A stretch of 49,191 bases of DNA from Roseimaritima sediminicola. Its GTDB lineage: Bacteria; Planctomycetota; Planctomycetia; Pirellulales; Pirellulaceae. Within the stretch, counting starts at the first letter, position 1. Each line of letters starts with the position of its first letter. The DNA is taken from assembly GCF_009618275.1 (NCBI RefSeq), contig NZ_WIAD01000043.1, forward strand, positions 1 through 49,191. Direction: 5' to 3'. This document shows positions 26,371 to 32,058 of this stretch, piece by piece. The notes beneath the pieces were generated by a model. It was given only the letters and a program-made list of their open reading frames with translations. It did not search any database and was not told the DNA's origin. A program made the translations under genes and the position numbers.

Positions 26371-26562
26371 CCAGTGCCACAGGCTTCCAGCCAGTGGCAT
26401 AGGCTTCCAGCCAGTGGCATAGGCTTCCAGCCTGTGGCATAGGCTTCCAGCAGTGGCATAGGCTTCCAGCAGTGGTATAGGCTTCCAGCAGTGGCATAGG
26501 CTTCCAGCCTGTGGGGGACTTTTGGGAGACGATTACTTTCACAGACTGGAAGCCGATGCCAC
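26371..26562. repeat. Tandem array of AGGCTTCCAG-type units with an inverted end copy
   Basis: Seven copies of AGGCTTCCAG begin at 26381, 26401, 26421, 26441, 26460, 26479 and 26498. The period is therefore 20 bp for the first copies and 19 bp for the last. Units read AGGCTTCCAGCCAGTGGCAT with small changes. An inverted copy (CACAGACTGGAAGCCGATGCC) closes the array near 26540-26560. The array follows directly after the AraC stop codon. A lone copy of the same unit ends the other AraC gene at 5-31. There are no unique spacers, so it is not a CRISPR. Confidence 0.9.
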
Positions 26563-26566
26563 TTCG

Positions 26567-26806
26567 TTAGCGTGGGAGGGATTTGGGGGCGAGCCATTCC
26601 AGTTCGGCGAGGTGCGCGGCCAGGCGGACATGGTCGCCGGCGGCCCGCGCTTGTTCGATCTCCGCTTGCAGCACGTCGACTCGCTGTAGGGCTGCGACCA
26701 GCAGGCCGAGATCGGCACGGCACCGACGGCACGTCTGCCGGTATGACTGCCGCGCACGGCAGGCCGGACAGCGTAGCTCGCGCGGTGCGGACGGTGCGGC
26801 ATTCAT
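26567..26806 (-). CDS. Small zinc-ribbon protein of the Hsp70 operon
   Basis: 79 residues from the ATG at 26806, 17 bp after the Hsp70 stop. A four-Cys zinc ribbon lies near the start: Cys13 and Cys16 (CPAC), then Cys26 and Cys29 (CRRC), followed by RADLGLLVAALQRV. The rest is a helical segment with leucines at regular spacing. From memory, a C-x2-C...C-x2-C-x2-DL pattern is also seen in small proteins beside non-canonical Hsp70 genes in other bacteria, which would fit a co-factor of this chaperone. Function is unproven. The start at 26806 is preferred over an in-frame upstream codon inside the Hsp70 gene because the sequence before it lacks any conserved look. Confidence 0.65.
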   Translation of the reverse strand: MNAAPSAPRELRCPACRARQSYRQTCRRCRADLGLLVAALQRVDVLQAEIEQARAAGDHVRLAAHLAELEWLAPKSLPR

Positions 26807-26823
26807 GACAAGCGTCGAGCCCG

Positions 26824-28632
26824 TTACTGGTTGATATAGAACAGGACATCGTCGAGTTCTTCGCAAAGCTTCTCGGCGGCGGCACGGTCCTCACTGCGAA
26901 TCGCTTGCTGCAACTGTTCGCACAGATCCGCCAAGTCTTCGGCGTCCTCTCCTTCGGCTTTGGTGGCAGCCTGCTGGGCGCGCTGCAACATTCGGTGGGC
27001 GGGAGCCAGCGGCGAGTCATCGTCGATGTCCGCGAGCGGTTCGGTCCCGCCGCCCTGTAGCTGGAAAGCGGAGCGGTCTTCGTCGTCCACAGTGAGGACT
27101 TCGACATTGGTGAACAGGTCTTCCAGTCTGTGGGCGGCCTCTTCGCCTCGGTCGCTGTCGAACCGGCTGAGCGCGTTGTCGATCGTCAGTTCCTGGACAT
27201 CGTCGTTGCCGGATTGTTGGGCGGTAACCTTCAGGGTGCCGCTGAGGGACAGTTCAAAGCGGACCAGGATTTTGGCCCGGTGTCCGCTGGGGCTTTTCAG
27301 TGGCAATGTAAAGTGTCCCAGCGAGGTGTTGCGTTCCACCTCCTTGTGTTCGCCCTGCAAGACGTGGATCTTGACGATCTCTTGATCTTCGTGGACCGCA
27401 TAGTAGGACTCTTCGAAACGGGCTGGCAGGGCGGTGCCGCGGTGAATGATCGGCGAAGCGATTAAGCGTGGTCGTTCCAGAAATTCGCCGTCGAGCGCTT
27501 CGATGCCCAGGGTGTGGGTGACCACATCGATCAGCACCCGGTCGACGCCTTCGCCGGCGATCATGGCACCTTGAACCGCCGCCCCCAGAGCCACCGCCAG
27601 GTCCGGGTCGACAGCGCGGCTGGGTTCCAGTTGGAACTCTTCGCGCAAACGCCGCTCGACCATCGGGGTTCGCGTCGAACCTCCGACCAGGATCAAGTCG
27701 TCGAGGTTGTGGGCATTCAAGCCCGCCTCCTGAATCGCCTCGTGAACGCATTGCACGGTGCGTTGGATCTTCTCCGCAATCAAGGTTTCGTATTCGTTGC
27801 GGTCAATGGTGACCTTCAGGTTCAGCGGTTTTCCGTTCTTCTCGGCGATGAACTCTTCGGCAATGGTCACCGATTCCTCGCTGCTCAACCGGCACTTGGC
27901 GGCTTCACAAGCATTGATCAGACGCCACCGAGTGCTGGGATCGGCACGCAGGTCCACTTCGTGTTGGTCGTAAAACGCTTCGGCGACATGCTGGACCAAC
28001 AGGGAGTCGAGGTCGTCCCCGCCTAGATGCGTATCGCCACGACTGCTGAGCACTTCGATGACGCCTTCTTCGATGCGCACGATGGAAACATCGAACGTGC
28101 CGCCGCCGAAATCGTAGACCGCCACGTGTTGACACTGCTGGTCATTGACATGGTAGACCAGGGTCGCGGCGGTGGGTTCGTTGATGATCCGTTCGACGGT
28201 CAAACCCGCCAGTTCGCCGGCATGCTTGGTGGCCTGACGCTGCGACTCGTCAAAGAAGGCGGGCACGGTGATCACGGCGCGGGTGATCTCGGTGCCCAGG
28301 ACCGCGGACGCTCGATCGCGAAGTCGCCGGAGGATGATCGCACTGATTTCCGGCGGCGTGAATTCTTGCTCCGCCAGCTTGACCGGGTCCATCGATCCCA
28401 TTTTGCGTTTGATCGACGCGATGGTCGCCTGGGGGAACGCAACCAATTGATTTCTGGCCGTGGTTCCGACCAGGGTTTTGCCACTGGGATCCAAGCCCAC
28501 GACCGAGGGCAGAATCGCTGCGCCCTGCTCGGTCAGGACTTGGGGTTTTCCTTGGACGACGGCTGCCACCACACTGTTGGTGGTTCCCAGGTCGATACCG
28601 ACGATGGGAGAGGAGGGTTGGTCAGTTGCCAT
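26824..28632 (-). CDS. Hsp70-family chaperone, non-canonical DnaK paralogue
   Basis: A 602-residue Hsp70. The nucleotide-binding domain has GIDLGTTNSVVAAV (phosphate 1), AVITVPAFFDESQRQATKHAGELAGL, the phosphate-2 loop VYDFGGGTFDVSIV and LVGGSTRTPMVERRL. The substrate-binding beta domain includes RNTSLGHFTLPL and GTLKVTAQ. The C-terminal lid is short and divergent and ends DDVLFYINQ, without the EEVD-like tail. Upstream in the same operon are a GrpE-like gene (53 bp away) and a J-like gene, and downstream is a zinc-ribbon gene. It is thus a self-contained chaperone set, separate from the housekeeping dnaK, which is presumably elsewhere. Client and trigger are unknown. Confidence 0.93.
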   Translation of the reverse strand: MATDQPSSPIVGIDLGTTNSVVAAVVQGKPQVLTEQGAAILPSVVGLDPSGKTLVGTTARNQLVAFPQATIASIKRKMGSMDPVKLAEQEFTPPEISAIILRRLRDRASAVLGTEITRAVITVPAFFDESQRQATKHAGELAGLTVERIINEPTAATLVYHVNDQQCQHVAVYDFGGGTFDVSIVRIEEGVIEVLSSRGDTHLGGDDLDSLLVQHVAEAFYDQHEVDLRADPSTRWRLINACEAAKCRLSSEESVTIAEEFIAEKNGKPLNLKVTIDRNEYETLIAEKIQRTVQCVHEAIQEAGLNAHNLDDLILVGGSTRTPMVERRLREEFQLEPSRAVDPDLAVALGAAVQGAMIAGEGVDRVLIDVVTHTLGIEALDGEFLERPRLIASPIIHRGTALPARFEESYYAVHEDQEIVKIHVLQGEHKEVERNTSLGHFTLPLKSPSGHRAKILVRFELSLSGTLKVTAQQSGNDDVQELTIDNALSRFDSDRGEEAAHRLEDLFTNVEVLTVDDEDRSAFQLQGGGTEPLADIDDDSPLAPAHRMLQRAQQAATKAEGEDAEDLADLCEQLQQAIRSEDRAAAEKLCEELDDVLFYINQ

Positions 28633-28685
28633 AATGGTGTTCGTTTACGAGTGGCGAGGTTGATCGGTGCGCGGGCCGGTAACGT

Positions 28686-29402
28686 TCAGTTTCGAGAGAC
28701 ATGGACTTCCGCATAGCGGATGACGTCGCCCTGCCAACGGTAGGCCGGGCAGAGCTGAGTGACGACGTGTCCGGCGGGAACCCGGTCGGATACCACCGAT
28801 TCGACCGCCGACATCAAATTGCCATCGAAGGGAGCCCCCTGGACGTCAATCCTTTCGACGTCCGCCTCGCGGACCAGACGCTGGACCCGCTGGAGCAGCA
28901 TCTCCAGCGCGGCGGTCGACGTTTCTACGGCCGCGTCCGCGACAGCGGGAGGCGGAGGACAGGAGGTCGCGAAACGGCGTAGCCACCCGCCCAGCAACCA
29001 GCGACGCACCGCACCGCACCGCTGCAGTTCCTGGTCCACCTGTTGGCGGAGATGATCTCGCCACGATGAATCGGCTTCGGCCGAAGGACGCAGCGAGTCG
29101 ACCGCGGTCTGAACGGTCCGCGACAGATGAAAATCAATCTCCGCCAACGTTTCGCACAAACGGCGCTGCTGCAGCCGCTGGGCTTCACGGTCGGCGCTGA
29201 TTCCCGAGGACATGTCGGCGGAGAGCTGGGCGGCGCTGCGATGCAGCCCCTGCTCCAGTTCGCTGATCTGCGCGGTCGCCGCGGCCAACTTGTCGGCCAG
29301 CTTGCGATCCTCCGACGACTGGGTTCGAAACTCGTGACGCATCGCCGTAAAGGCTTCGATGACGTCGACCAAGCCGAACGACGGCGGCTGTGGTTCATTC
29401 AT
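28686..29402 (-). CDS. GrpE-like nucleotide exchange factor
   Basis: A 238-residue protein whose C-terminal 60 residues match the GrpE beta-wing pattern: VERIDVQGAPFDGNLMSAVE, then VPAGHVVTQLCPAYRWQGDVIRYAEVHVSR. This corresponds to the G.PFDP..HEAV and V..GYR..G.VLR.A.V segments of GrpE. The first 110 residues are a long helical region with heptad-like leucines (LADKLAAATAQISELEQGL), as in the GrpE dimer stalk. A region of about 50 residues between them is not GrpE-like. The gene overlaps the J-like gene by eight bases and precedes the Hsp70, so it should exchange nucleotide on that Hsp70. Similarity is limited to the C-terminal domain and stalk, so this is a divergent family member. Confidence 0.8.
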   Translation of the reverse strand: MNEPQPPSFGLVDVIEAFTAMRHEFRTQSSEDRKLADKLAAATAQISELEQGLHRSAAQLSADMSSGISADREAQRLQQRRLCETLAEIDFHLSRTVQTAVDSLRPSAEADSSWRDHLRQQVDQELQRCGAVRRWLLGGWLRRFATSCPPPPAVADAAVETSTAALEMLLQRVQRLVREADVERIDVQGAPFDGNLMSAVESVVSDRVPAGHVVTQLCPAYRWQGDVIRYAEVHVSRN

Positions 29403-29721
29403 TACGCGATCCAGTGGTTTGATTACCCAGACTGAGCAGCACCTCGGTCGGGACCCGCGGCGGGTTCTGTTTCTCCTGATCCAGCAGCGTTTTCCAAGGT
29501 AGCGGGTCTCCGGGGGGCTGCGTCAATCGCCGGGCGATCGTCATCGGGTCCGACGCGGCATTGTAGGCCTGTTGGATCTGCTGGAAACGTTCGGGGTCCG
29601 ATTCCGGTGAGTGCCGTCGGACCAGTTCCAGATAACGCGAGCGAACATCCGCTAGGGAAGCGTTGGCAGGCAGGCCCAAGACAGCAAACGGGTCGGACGC
29701 AGAGGAGTGCGATTCAGACAC
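29395..29721 (-). CDS. J-domain-like protein lacking the HPD motif
   Basis: 108 residues from a GTG start. Residues about 9-60 read as a J domain: DPFAVLGLPANASLADVRSRYLELVRRH, then DPERFQQIQQAYNAASDP. The loop between helices II and III, normally His-Pro-Asp, is His-Ser-Pro here (RRHSPESDPE). The HPD tripeptide is needed by canonical J proteins to stimulate Hsp70 ATPase, so this protein must work differently or pair only with its own Hsp70. The remaining 45 residues are proline-rich with no zinc-finger or client-binding domain. It overlaps the GrpE-like gene by eight bases and is first in the chaperone block, 126 bp after the large KA-repeat protein. Confidence 0.85.
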   Translation of the reverse strand: MSESHSSASDPFAVLGLPANASLADVRSRYLELVRRHSPESDPERFQQIQQAYNAASDPMTIARRLTQPPGDPLPWKTLLDQEKQNPPRVPTEVLLSLGNQTTGSRNE

Positions 29722-29847: not shown

Positions 29848-32058
29848 TTAGAAAACGTCGTCGTCGTCATCGTCATCGTCGTCGGCAAAAGCGTTAAAGA
29901 ACATTTCGGCAAACTCGCCAAACAGCGGTTCCGGCCGCAGTTCGTGCAGGGCTCGCTCGGCAGTCTCCGCGTAGGCGTGCCGCAAGTAGGGATCGCTCTC
30001 CTCGCTCGCAGCCTGCTTCAGAATTTGAACTCTTTGCTCGAGGTCGACAAGCCGTGGGTTGGTGCTGGTGTTGAGCAGGGTCTGGAAATGCCAGAAGATC
30101 ACTTGCGCCTGCGATGCCTTGCTCATGATCACCGGCGGTAAGCGGAATTGGTAATTTGTATAGAAAGTCTTTTTGTGAACCAGCCATTCCACGGCCGCCC
30201 AACAGTCCTGCTTGCGATAACGGGAGAAAAGGTTCCTGGTATTGGTGATCCGTTTCTTCAGCTCGTTGGCAAACTTCGCGCCGTGCATTCGATAGGCCGG
30301 ATACAACGAGTTCGTGCGATGCAGGTCACGAAAAAACCGGCCACAGGCGAGCAGTTGTTCGGTAGGGAGCGTTGAGACCGACTTCGCCGCTTGATCGACG
30401 GGACCGCGGAAAGCTTTGAGCTCCGCTGCCGGCAAACGCATCATCTGCATCGCCCCGAGCGCCATCACGGCGTCGGCCAGGTCTTCACGGGACGTTCCGC
30501 CCAGCTGCTCGCGGGCCTCCTTGCGCTGCGCTTCAAAGGACGGGAGATCGCCGGCGCGGCGGGACAGCGCAGCCTGCAGGTAAGGGACCCATTCCTGACA
30601 AACCCACTCGGGCCAGAGGCTTTTCGCGTTGTCGAAATGTTCTTGCGCCTGAGCGACTCGGGTTTTGCGGCGGGCAAGCCGCATCGATTCCAGGAGGTTC
30701 CATTTCCATTCGATCGCCCGGACTTTGGGGTTGGGATGTCGCGAGGCAGCAAGCCACTTCACATGCGGCACCGCCAGTTCATTCATTTCCTTGTCGAAGT
30801 AATGATCGACCAGCCACAGACGGGGCGTGATCTCTTCGGGGACGCCTTTGCTCCACGCTTCCATCGCGGTGGCGAGCCGGGACTCATACCACTGCCGGTC
30901 CGCTTTGCGAAAGCGTTCGGGGTCGGCGTACTCCTGCAACCAACCGACGTACTCACGGTGCGGTTCGGACGACGCCGGGTAGGCTTTGCAGGCCGCTTGG
31001 TAGTAGCGGTTCACTTCGCTGCGATCTTCAGGGCCCTCGTTGTGCAGGATGCGGGCCAAGGGGTTCAGGGAAGCGCGTCGATGATTGGCAAGCGCGAGGT
31101 AGACCTGGCATTTCACAGCGTCGCGGACATTCGCGGACAGTTGGTCGTTCTGGTCCAGCGATTGCAGATACTTAAGGGCCGCCGGTTCCGCTTGGTTCTC
31201 ATGGTCAGGTGTCGGCGCGTAGAACAGGAACTTCAGCCACAGGTTTTGCGGGTCGTGTACCGGGCCGGGGAGTCGTTTGGTAATGTGTTCAAAGCCGTCG
31301 GAAAACGGCAGGTGATAAATGCGAATCAACGCATTCTCGCACAGCGATTGGACCAGGTGCGGCTCAAAACGTCGTTGCTCGGTGGCGAAGACCCGTAACC
31401 AATCGACTTGGGCAGGGCCGATCCAATCATCCTCGGAGATGCTTTCTGGAATGGGGCCGGCGTCGGCGGTTTCTCGATAGGCTTCGGCCAGTGCGGGCCG
31501 CTCGAACCGCAGACGCCAGATCATCCGCACGTCCGGCGCGGCCGCTTTGGCGTCGCCGCCCGAGCGGTGCAGCTGCTGCGATTGTCGCAGGTTCGCAGCG
31601 ATCCGGGCCGGACGTCGCTGGGCGTCCAGCCGCCGCCAACTCTGCTCGGCCTTTTCCGGGGCGTCATGGTACCAATCGATCAGGCCTGTGATGAACAACC
31701 GCCAGTCGCTGAGCAGGCTTCGCCGCGGAATCGACTGCAAACATTGACGAGCTCGTTCGTCGCGTCCCGCGGCAACCGCCTCCAGGGCATCGCGCACCGC
31801 GGTGACTTGTTGGGCGATTTCAGGCGAGAGACTCTTGAGCCGCGCGGCATCGAAAACGGCCACGTCCTCGGCCGGTTCTCCGTCGCCAGGGCGGGGCCGT
31901 ACCCGCGAGACGCGGCTGCGCACGATGCGTCCTTCCCCGGCGGCTTGCCGGGGGCTCGTCGCTTTTGCTTTTGCTTTTGCTTTTGCTTTCGCCTTCGCCT
32001 TCGCTTTTGCTTTGGCCTTATGCTTGGCGGCTTTTCTCTGCTGTTTCGAACGTGCCAT
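29848..32058 (-). CDS. Large helical-repeat protein with Lys-Ala N-terminus and poly-Asp C-terminus
   Basis: 736 residues from the ATG at 32058, preceded by AAGG; a GTG start at 32148 would add 30 residues. Residues about 10-35 are alternating Lys-Ala. Most of the protein is alpha-helical, with TPR/HAT-like spacing (LLSDWRLFITGLIDWYHDAPEKAEQSWRRL; YYQAACKAYPASSEPHREYVGWLQEY). It ends in a run of aspartates. No catalytic motif or export signal is seen. It is oriented with the chaperone operon and may be its first gene. A scaffold or client-holding role is possible but not shown, and I do not recognise a named family. The basic head and acidic tail could bind nucleic acid or ribosomes. Confidence 0.75.
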   Translation of the reverse strand: MARSKQQRKAAKHKAKAKAKAKAKAKAKAKAKATSPRQAAGEGRIVRSRVSRVRPRPGDGEPAEDVAVFDAARLKSLSPEIAQQVTAVRDALEAVAAGRDERARQCLQSIPRRSLLSDWRLFITGLIDWYHDAPEKAEQSWRRLDAQRRPARIAANLRQSQQLHRSGGDAKAAAPDVRMIWRLRFERPALAEAYRETADAGPIPESISEDDWIGPAQVDWLRVFATEQRRFEPHLVQSLCENALIRIYHLPFSDGFEHITKRLPGPVHDPQNLWLKFLFYAPTPDHENQAEPAALKYLQSLDQNDQLSANVRDAVKCQVYLALANHRRASLNPLARILHNEGPEDRSEVNRYYQAACKAYPASSEPHREYVGWLQEYADPERFRKADRQWYESRLATAMEAWSKGVPEEITPRLWLVDHYFDKEMNELAVPHVKWLAASRHPNPKVRAIEWKWNLLESMRLARRKTRVAQAQEHFDNAKSLWPEWVCQEWVPYLQAALSRRAGDLPSFEAQRKEAREQLGGTSREDLADAVMALGAMQMMRLPAAELKAFRGPVDQAAKSVSTLPTEQLLACGRFFRDLHRTNSLYPAYRMHGAKFANELKKRITNTRNLFSRYRKQDCWAAVEWLVHKKTFYTNYQFRLPPVIMSKASQAQVIFWHFQTLLNTSTNPRLVDLEQRVQILKQAASEESDPYLRHAYAETAERALHELRPEPLFGEFAEMFFNAFADDDDDDDDDVF
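31961..32020 (-). repeat. GCTTTT hexanucleotide microsatellite within a gene
   Basis: About ten units of GCTTTT or its variants GCCTTC and GCTTTC run in frame and encode alternating Lys-Ala on the minus strand. Perfect units come first (31961-31988) and degenerate ones after. Length change by whole units would preserve the frame. Confidence 0.85.

Follow-up and report, generated by a model that had tools for sequence, protein, structure and literature searches.

A conserved five-gene locus of Roseimaritima sediminicola and its relatives encodes an Hsp70, a GrpE-like protein and a J-protein without the HPD histidine

A 49-kb contig of the 6.2-Mb genome of Roseimaritima sediminicola (NZ_WIAD01000043.1; 49,191 nucleotides, analysed over its full length and here termed the window) carries a five-gene unit on its minus strand, which encodes, in the order of transcription, a large tetratricopeptide repeat (TPR)-type protein, a J-like protein, a GrpE-like protein, an Hsp70 and a zinc-ribbon protein. 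The histidine of the histidine-proline-aspartate (HPD) motif is absent from the J-like protein and from every member of its family collected here (His in 0/56), while the full order TPR–J–GrpE–Hsp70–zinc ribbon is found in 43/55 related loci in addition to the window. The initial annotation of this DNA had proposed an alternative, dedicated Hsp70 system whose J-protein lacks HPD, and both counts support it. Judging from the sequences, we consider it somewhat more probable than not that the unit encodes a dedicated Hsp70 machine, whose J-protein would dock through its proline and Asp/Glu residues and promote ATP hydrolysis without the histidine.

The J-protein motif and its conservation

The J-like protein is matched by the Pfam DnaJ model (Bitscore: 30.3; cut-off: 27.8; e-value: 4.6e-07). 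Its AlphaFold2 model is of moderate confidence (mean predicted local distance difference test score, pLDDT: 73.8), and the top 12 rows of a Foldseek search with this model are J-domain structures, the best e-value being 1.7e-03 and none being 0.001 or lower. No gap is seen in helix II or in the motif when the protein is aligned with DnaJ and with solved J-domains, and Ser-Pro-Glu of the window protein falls on the HPD positions. The motif had initially been read as His-Ser-Pro, which is off by one register; the histidine then taken for the first HPD letter (the residue preceding Ser38-Pro39-Glu40) lies at the position of DnaJ Tyr32, where a histidine occurs in only 8/56 family members.

The 56 J-proteins were collected with a profile for the His-less family, one scan using patterns that favour this family, and their motif triplets read PPD (22), PPE (18), SPE (7), SPD (5), TPE (2), PPS (1) and GPD (1). 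Pro, Ser, Thr or Gly is therefore found in place of the histidine, while the proline is retained in 56/56 and the third residue is Asp or Glu in 55/56. The set consists of the window and 55 loci, L091, L095 and L101 having been dropped as they lie on the same contigs as L056, L058 and L054, respectively; both L148 and L149 were counted although their J segments are identical, giving 55 distinct sequences. A weak extra J match in L217 (15.4 bits), reading RPE, was left out of the counts. The J alignment of 47 rows includes the window sequence and omits L091, L095, L100, L101, L111 and L116 from the 52 J references. Directly after the motif, the position of DnaJ N37 is a gap in 56/56, and likewise in DjlB and DjlC, while the J K26 position is Leu in 52/56. 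By contrast, HPD is present in 22/22 of the J-proteins scoring above 80 bits against the canonical profile at the J loci examined for comparison.

Loci were also gathered without reference to the J-protein, with the GrpE-like and zinc-ribbon proteins as anchors, the J gene then being sought with the family profile (GrpE anchor) or with the family and canonical profiles (zinc-ribbon anchor). Among the 30 best GrpE-profile loci from 294 genomes of the phylum, 12 (window included; two also read in larger stretches) have a family J-protein, all of them His-less. The other 18 comprise 16 loci with a full-length DnaJ containing HPD and two without a J match in the stretch examined. Zinc-ribbon searches of these same 294 genomes gave 18 matches. 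The unit includes a family J gene in the window and in 12 of the other loci (13/13 His-less); three matches are cut by contig ends and two do not represent the unit. The same anchor gave eight matches in 297 genomes from the phylum to which a Desulfotignum metagenome-assembled genome (MAG) belongs, one of the matches being the seed; six of the seven new loci have a J gene (6/6 His-less), and one is cut by a contig end. Searches of 190 genomes from the class to which L118 belongs and of 301 from the phylum of L120 recovered only the seed genome. The lack of a J gene in L147, L152, L154 and L223 is due to contig ends. The zinc-ribbon-anchored matches L155 and L156 were examined and are not the five-gene unit. 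Positions 2303-8323 of L155 show a different arrangement, with an Hsp70-like protein containing internal CxxC pairs and a GrpE-like stretch, and inspection by eye further revealed a protein-kinase-like gene and a protein that begins with a J-like segment of still greater degeneracy.

In favour of a decaying, functionless copy, the J-like protein lacks HPD and scores only 30.3 bits against the Pfam model, and dN/dS (the ratio of non-synonymous to synonymous substitution rates) of the J gene is 0.67 and 0.77 in 2/9 pairs (dS: 0.11 and 0.04, respectively). The remaining 7/9 pairs have values of 0.04-0.31, and one motif class is kept in 56/56 within a fixed gene order. Orthologues with an intact HPD were looked for as evidence of decay; a histidine was found in 0/56, and the loci gathered without the J-protein agree. 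Because the motif is conserved, we reject the decay of a single copy, which is hardly credible, and the non-HPD motif is a maintained variant as judged from these sequence comparisons.

Four Pfam J-domains are encoded in the genome of the window: two with HPD, the J-like protein with SPE, and one with KPE near an HscC-type Hsp70. KPE likewise occupies the motif position of the L185 J-protein, a separate HPD string occurring later in its sequence. Weak J matches without HPD were also observed in L184 and L192 (genomes G147 and G323; 32.5 and 14.8 bits, respectively), beside other Hsp70-like genes. A plasmid search matched 13 records, always inside the J-domain portion of the query, and the 11 that are annotated carry the names DnaJ or J-domain protein.

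Architecture and distribution of the five-gene unit

The four minus-strand genes initially annotated at 26567-29721 are present, with Pfam matches for DnaJ, GrpE and HSP70, but the unit does not end there, as a conserved fifth gene, encoding the TPR-type protein, precedes the J gene (Table 1). Its start (ATG at 32058) was placed by comparison with relatives. The J-like and GrpE-like genes overlap by 8 bases.

Table 1. Features of the five-gene unit, in window coordinates
Feature	Position	Strand	Basis
Large TPR/alpha-solenoid-type protein, ~736 amino acids (fifth gene)	29848..32058 (end approximate)	minus	Homologues upstream of J gene
J-like protein, 108 amino acids, GTG start	29395..29721	minus	Pfam DnaJ
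Ser38-Pro39-Glu40 at the HPD position of the J-like protein	29602..29610	minus	Ungapped alignment to DnaJ
GrpE-like protein (putative nucleotide exchange factor), 238 amino acids	28686..29402	minus	Pfam GrpE
Hsp70, 602 amino acids, clade distinct from DnaK, HscA and HscC	26824..28632	minus	Pfam HSP70, tree
Four-Cys zinc-ribbon protein, 79 amino acids	26567..26806	minus	Cys conserved among relatives

Where the order is complete, all five genes lie on one strand. It is incomplete or altered in 12 loci, eight of which end at a contig edge (L054, L092, L099, L100, L108, L113, L121 and L222); the others are L112, L158 and L159, considered below, and L146, in which the gene order is rearranged. The unit occurs mostly in planctomycetes, with some loci in Desulfobacterota and Alphaproteobacteria and one in a Dehalococcoidia genome, and its named hosts include the cultured Singulisphaera acidiphila DSM 18658, members of the Isosphaeraceae, Gemmataceae, Acetobacteraceae, Rhodospirillales and Dehalococcoidia, and the Desulfotignum MAG. 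The window itself is marked as planctomycete by a planctomycete cytochrome domain and by its relatives. A search of 59 relatives recovered the J and GrpE pair in six, all with [SP]P[DE]. These frequencies are lower bounds, as scoring was limited to the 8 to 25 best candidates of each genome. Acidobacteria are not counted as a host phylum, as locus L117, from a MAG labelled Acidobacteria, pairs in the tree with the Acetobacteraceae locus L119 (end branches: 0.039 and 0.035), through mis-binning or a recent transfer. No sixth conserved gene was found, in that no neighbour (open reading frames of at least 120 amino acids) recurs in at least five of 31 loci, the largest group comprising four loci.

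Two repeats can be observed at the locus. Approximately seven copies of a 20-bp unit (window 26371-26514) lie directly downstream of the zinc-ribbon gene, while approximately 11 copies of the hexanucleotide GCTTTT (31961-32025) encode a run of Lys and Ala close to the N-terminus of the TPR protein.

The Hsp70 and its partner proteins

The Hsp70 is matched by the Pfam HSP70 model (Bitscore: 453; e-value: 1.5e-135), and Foldseek matches of its AlphaFold2 model (pLDDT: 88.5) include DnaK and other Hsp70s. It falls below the NCBIfam equivalog cut-offs for DnaK (493 against 648 bits and 481 against 822.55 bits) and HscA (406.6 against 708.55 bits). In a tree of 56 Hsp70s, the 32 family members (the window protein and 31 of the 46 Hsp70 references) form one clade (support: 100/100), with DnaK and HscA placed elsewhere. 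Its nearest neighbours, from which it is separate, are three HscC-type rows (96/84), the only ones in a tree whose HscC and HscA branches are long and whose root is arbitrary.

The equivalents of DnaK N170, T173 and D393, to which functional roles are ascribed, are kept in 31, 32 and 32 of the 32 family Hsp70s, respectively. Residues R167, P419 and Q378 of DnaK are described as contacts of the HPD aspartate and proline (PMC8215388), and their equivalents are retained in 32/32 (R167 and P419) and 28/32 (Q378). The linker is altered, with D388 kept in only 1/32 (mostly Gly) and V389 in 0/32 (Pro, Ala, Ser, Arg or His), while the L392 position is Val or Ile in 32/32. At the L397 position 31/32 have His or Tyr, the three HscC-type rows being aromatic as well (Tyr or Phe), and at the T417 position 29/32 have Pro or Ala. 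A segment resembling the GrpE loop (NGKPLNL in the window protein; shorter in L122) aligns with the DnaK loop in the rows compared, where HscC is gapped.

The lid had initially been described as short; approximately 114 residues follow the beta substrate-binding domain (SBD), and it is therefore not simply short. The model predicts a short helix at residues 490-508, a disordered stretch at 510-534 (pLDDT < 50) and helices at 543-556, 562-579 and 583-601. DnaK has a long helix B in the corresponding region of its lid. A [DE][LIV]xFYL-type motif was also noted at the C-terminus of most family members (e.g. window 26824-26860).

The GrpE-like protein, of which only the beta-wing and stalk had been considered recognizable, is matched by the Pfam GrpE model (Bitscore: 52; cut-off: 25.8; e-value: 8.5e-14; model positions 86-164 of 165), so that the GrpE-like assignment stands, with the correction that it is the C-terminal half which matches, the N-terminal half being divergent. 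In relatives, its gene also sits between the J and Hsp70 genes. A defence system was considered and rejected, with one weak PADLOC match (LmuB; e-value: 0.00042) to residues 16-182 of this protein and none to the other four.

The assignment of the zinc-ribbon protein was borne out, its four Cys being invariant in 12/12 aligned relatives, many of which have a C-terminal extension absent from the window copy. In L057 (4744-7131), the zinc-ribbon frame continues into sequence which, by eye, is ProA-like (glutamate semialdehyde dehydrogenase-like), representing a fusion or a chance open frame. The TPR-type protein has a Lys-Ala-rich N-terminus and an acidic C-terminal tail. No TPR model was matched in a Pfam scan of the window protein, while such models match most of the ten homologues scanned and none in two. 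Two copies, L053:387-2858 and L145:1848-4904, have a C-x-C-x-x-C motif in the acidic tail. Client binding had initially been suggested as a role for the zinc ribbon; the large TPR protein would be a likelier client or scaffold part, and may be the best candidate for client choice.

Proposed mechanism and comparison with known systems

The TPR-type scaffold or client adaptor, the small J-protein, the GrpE-type exchange factor, the Hsp70 of its own clade and the zinc ribbon would together constitute an auxiliary machine. The J-protein would bind its cognate Hsp70 at the customary docking site at the linker, nucleotide-binding domain and SBD, with its Pro against the P419-equivalent and its Asp or Glu against the R167-equivalent, and would promote ATP hydrolysis with the altered linker standing in for the His contact. 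The cycle would be reset by the GrpE-like protein, and the client would be chosen or held by the TPR and zinc-ribbon proteins. Such an Hsp70 machine may be differently gated, as initially suggested.

Hydrolysis without the histidine is favoured because the Pro and acidic residues and their Hsp70 receptors are retained, because an exchange factor, which would serve little purpose in the absence of an ATPase cycle, is co-encoded, because an HPE cousin is active (DjlC is reported to stimulate the HscC ATPase; PMC8215388), and because stimulation of the Hsc70 ATPase has been reported for a designed J-domain analogue that has no HPD (PMC13254874). Concerted changes in the J-protein (K26) and the Hsp70 (D388, V389, L397 and T417) are likewise counted in its favour. 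A charge swap between J-protein and Hsp70 (R27/E206) was tabulated as well and dropped, as the pairing was not clear. We propose more tentatively, as a reading slightly short of probable, that the unit represents a previously unnamed Hsp70 branch of five genes, with a His-free trigger ([PST]-P-[DE], a changed linker and His/Tyr at L397) that arose by co-evolution of J-protein and Hsp70, and with the TPR protein acting as client adaptor.

Several observations weigh against hydrolysis by a His-less J-protein in a dedicated machine. The changes H-to-Q or D-to-N in HPD are reported to abolish stimulation in the systems tested, and HPE alone seems to be tolerated among HPD changes (PMC8215388, PMC13254874). 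The acidic residue is absent from the single PPS protein, the Q378 position is Leu in 4/32 Hsp70s, and the two higher dN/dS values of the J gene point the same way. In L112 the J and GrpE genes are present, but no Hsp70 was recognised in the 6 kb that follow, and L158 and L159 have no TPR or zinc-ribbon genes within the stretch examined. Furthermore, none of the three genomes of the same genus among the 59 relatives gave a family J match, and the unit is patchy.

The main rival casts the J-like protein as a recruiter or brake of the "type IV" or Pam16-like kind that does not stimulate the ATPase. It would tether the Hsp70 to the TPR and zinc-ribbon assembly or block other J-proteins, and either the client or a canonical cellular J-protein would trigger hydrolysis. 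The reported loss of stimulation with H-to-Q, the inhibition of Pam18 by Pam16 with its degenerate motif (PMC8215388, PMC13254874) and the two HPD J-proteins encoded elsewhere in the genome of the window are in keeping with it. Type IV (pseudo) J-proteins such as Pam16 and DNAJB13 are described as having a recognizable J-domain in which HPD is non-conservatively replaced and are presumed to be non-stimulating (PMC13254874), and the family shares with them the replaced histidine (56/56). It differs in the conservation of the proline and acidic residue, unlike Pam16 with DKE or DKS (PMC13254874), and in its co-encoded Hsp70 and exchange factor, and the Hsp70 residues which would receive Pro and Asp/Glu are kept. 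Moreover, no HPD J gene lies beside the unit in the zinc-ribbon-anchored loci, which were searched with both profiles; the only one found, in L160, belongs to a canonical dnaJ-grpE locus. We regard the recruiter or brake as unlikely, though to be taken seriously.

Neither the five-gene unit nor a bacterial [PS]P[DE] J family was found in titles and abstract openings among the literature matches listed, though the J-protein survey of Barriot et al. 2020 may include them. A 2026 review describes HPE as the only change seemingly tolerated and calls it enigmatic whether departures from HPD are accidental or selected (PMC13254874). Here, a His-less J-protein is kept in 56/56 beside its own Hsp70, an exchange factor and two more conserved proteins, across several phyla and in a cultured species. 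The five-gene unit thus offers a natural test of whether a J-domain lacking the histidine can drive the Hsp70 encoded with it, and by which contacts. Should promotion of hydrolysis by the His-less J-protein hold, the HPD histidine would be no universal requirement, and the HscC-type systems and the present family would form a wider group with a relaxed HPD.

HscC of Escherichia coli, with DjlB and DjlC, is the closest known system, HscC-type proteins lying nearest to the family among the other Hsp70s of the tree. DjlB and DjlC share the short post-motif loop, the Leu at K26 and a Glu at D35 with the family, and the unit could on these grounds be an HscC system under another name to which a GrpE gene was added. 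We consider this improbable. The 32 family Hsp70s form a clade of their own, and an HscC-type gene is present in addition in the genome of the window and in G323. HscC has Thr at L392 and no GrpE loop, in contrast to the Val/Ile and loop-like segment of the family, and is believed to work without GrpE (PMC8215388); the GrpE, zinc-ribbon and TPR genes belong to the family unit. DjlB and DjlC retain the histidine (HPE) and are 475-483 amino acids long, unlike the short, His-less window J-protein. Planctomycete HscC-type Hsp70 genes adjoin long J-proteins reading KPE in 5/5 loci (L059:7483-11740 on contig C110 of the same genome as the window, and L204-L207), with open frames of 495-637 amino acids, the KPE protein of the window genome having 572. 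As DjlB and DjlC read HPE and the planctomycete HscC partners KPE, relaxation of HPD spans both neighbouring clades, and departure from HPD is not unique to the five-gene unit.

By description, the unit can also be likened to MxDnaK2 of Myxococcus xanthus, a second Hsp70 encoded together with its own GrpE-type protein, MXAN_6672, though in a bicistronic operon (PMC11019930). With DnaK/DnaJ/GrpE, it shares the three component types, the GrpE-loop-like segment, the receptor residues for the HPD Pro and Asp, and the Hsp70 fold, whereas its Hsp70 belongs to a separate clade with an altered linker and a disordered break in the lid, and its J motif has no histidine.

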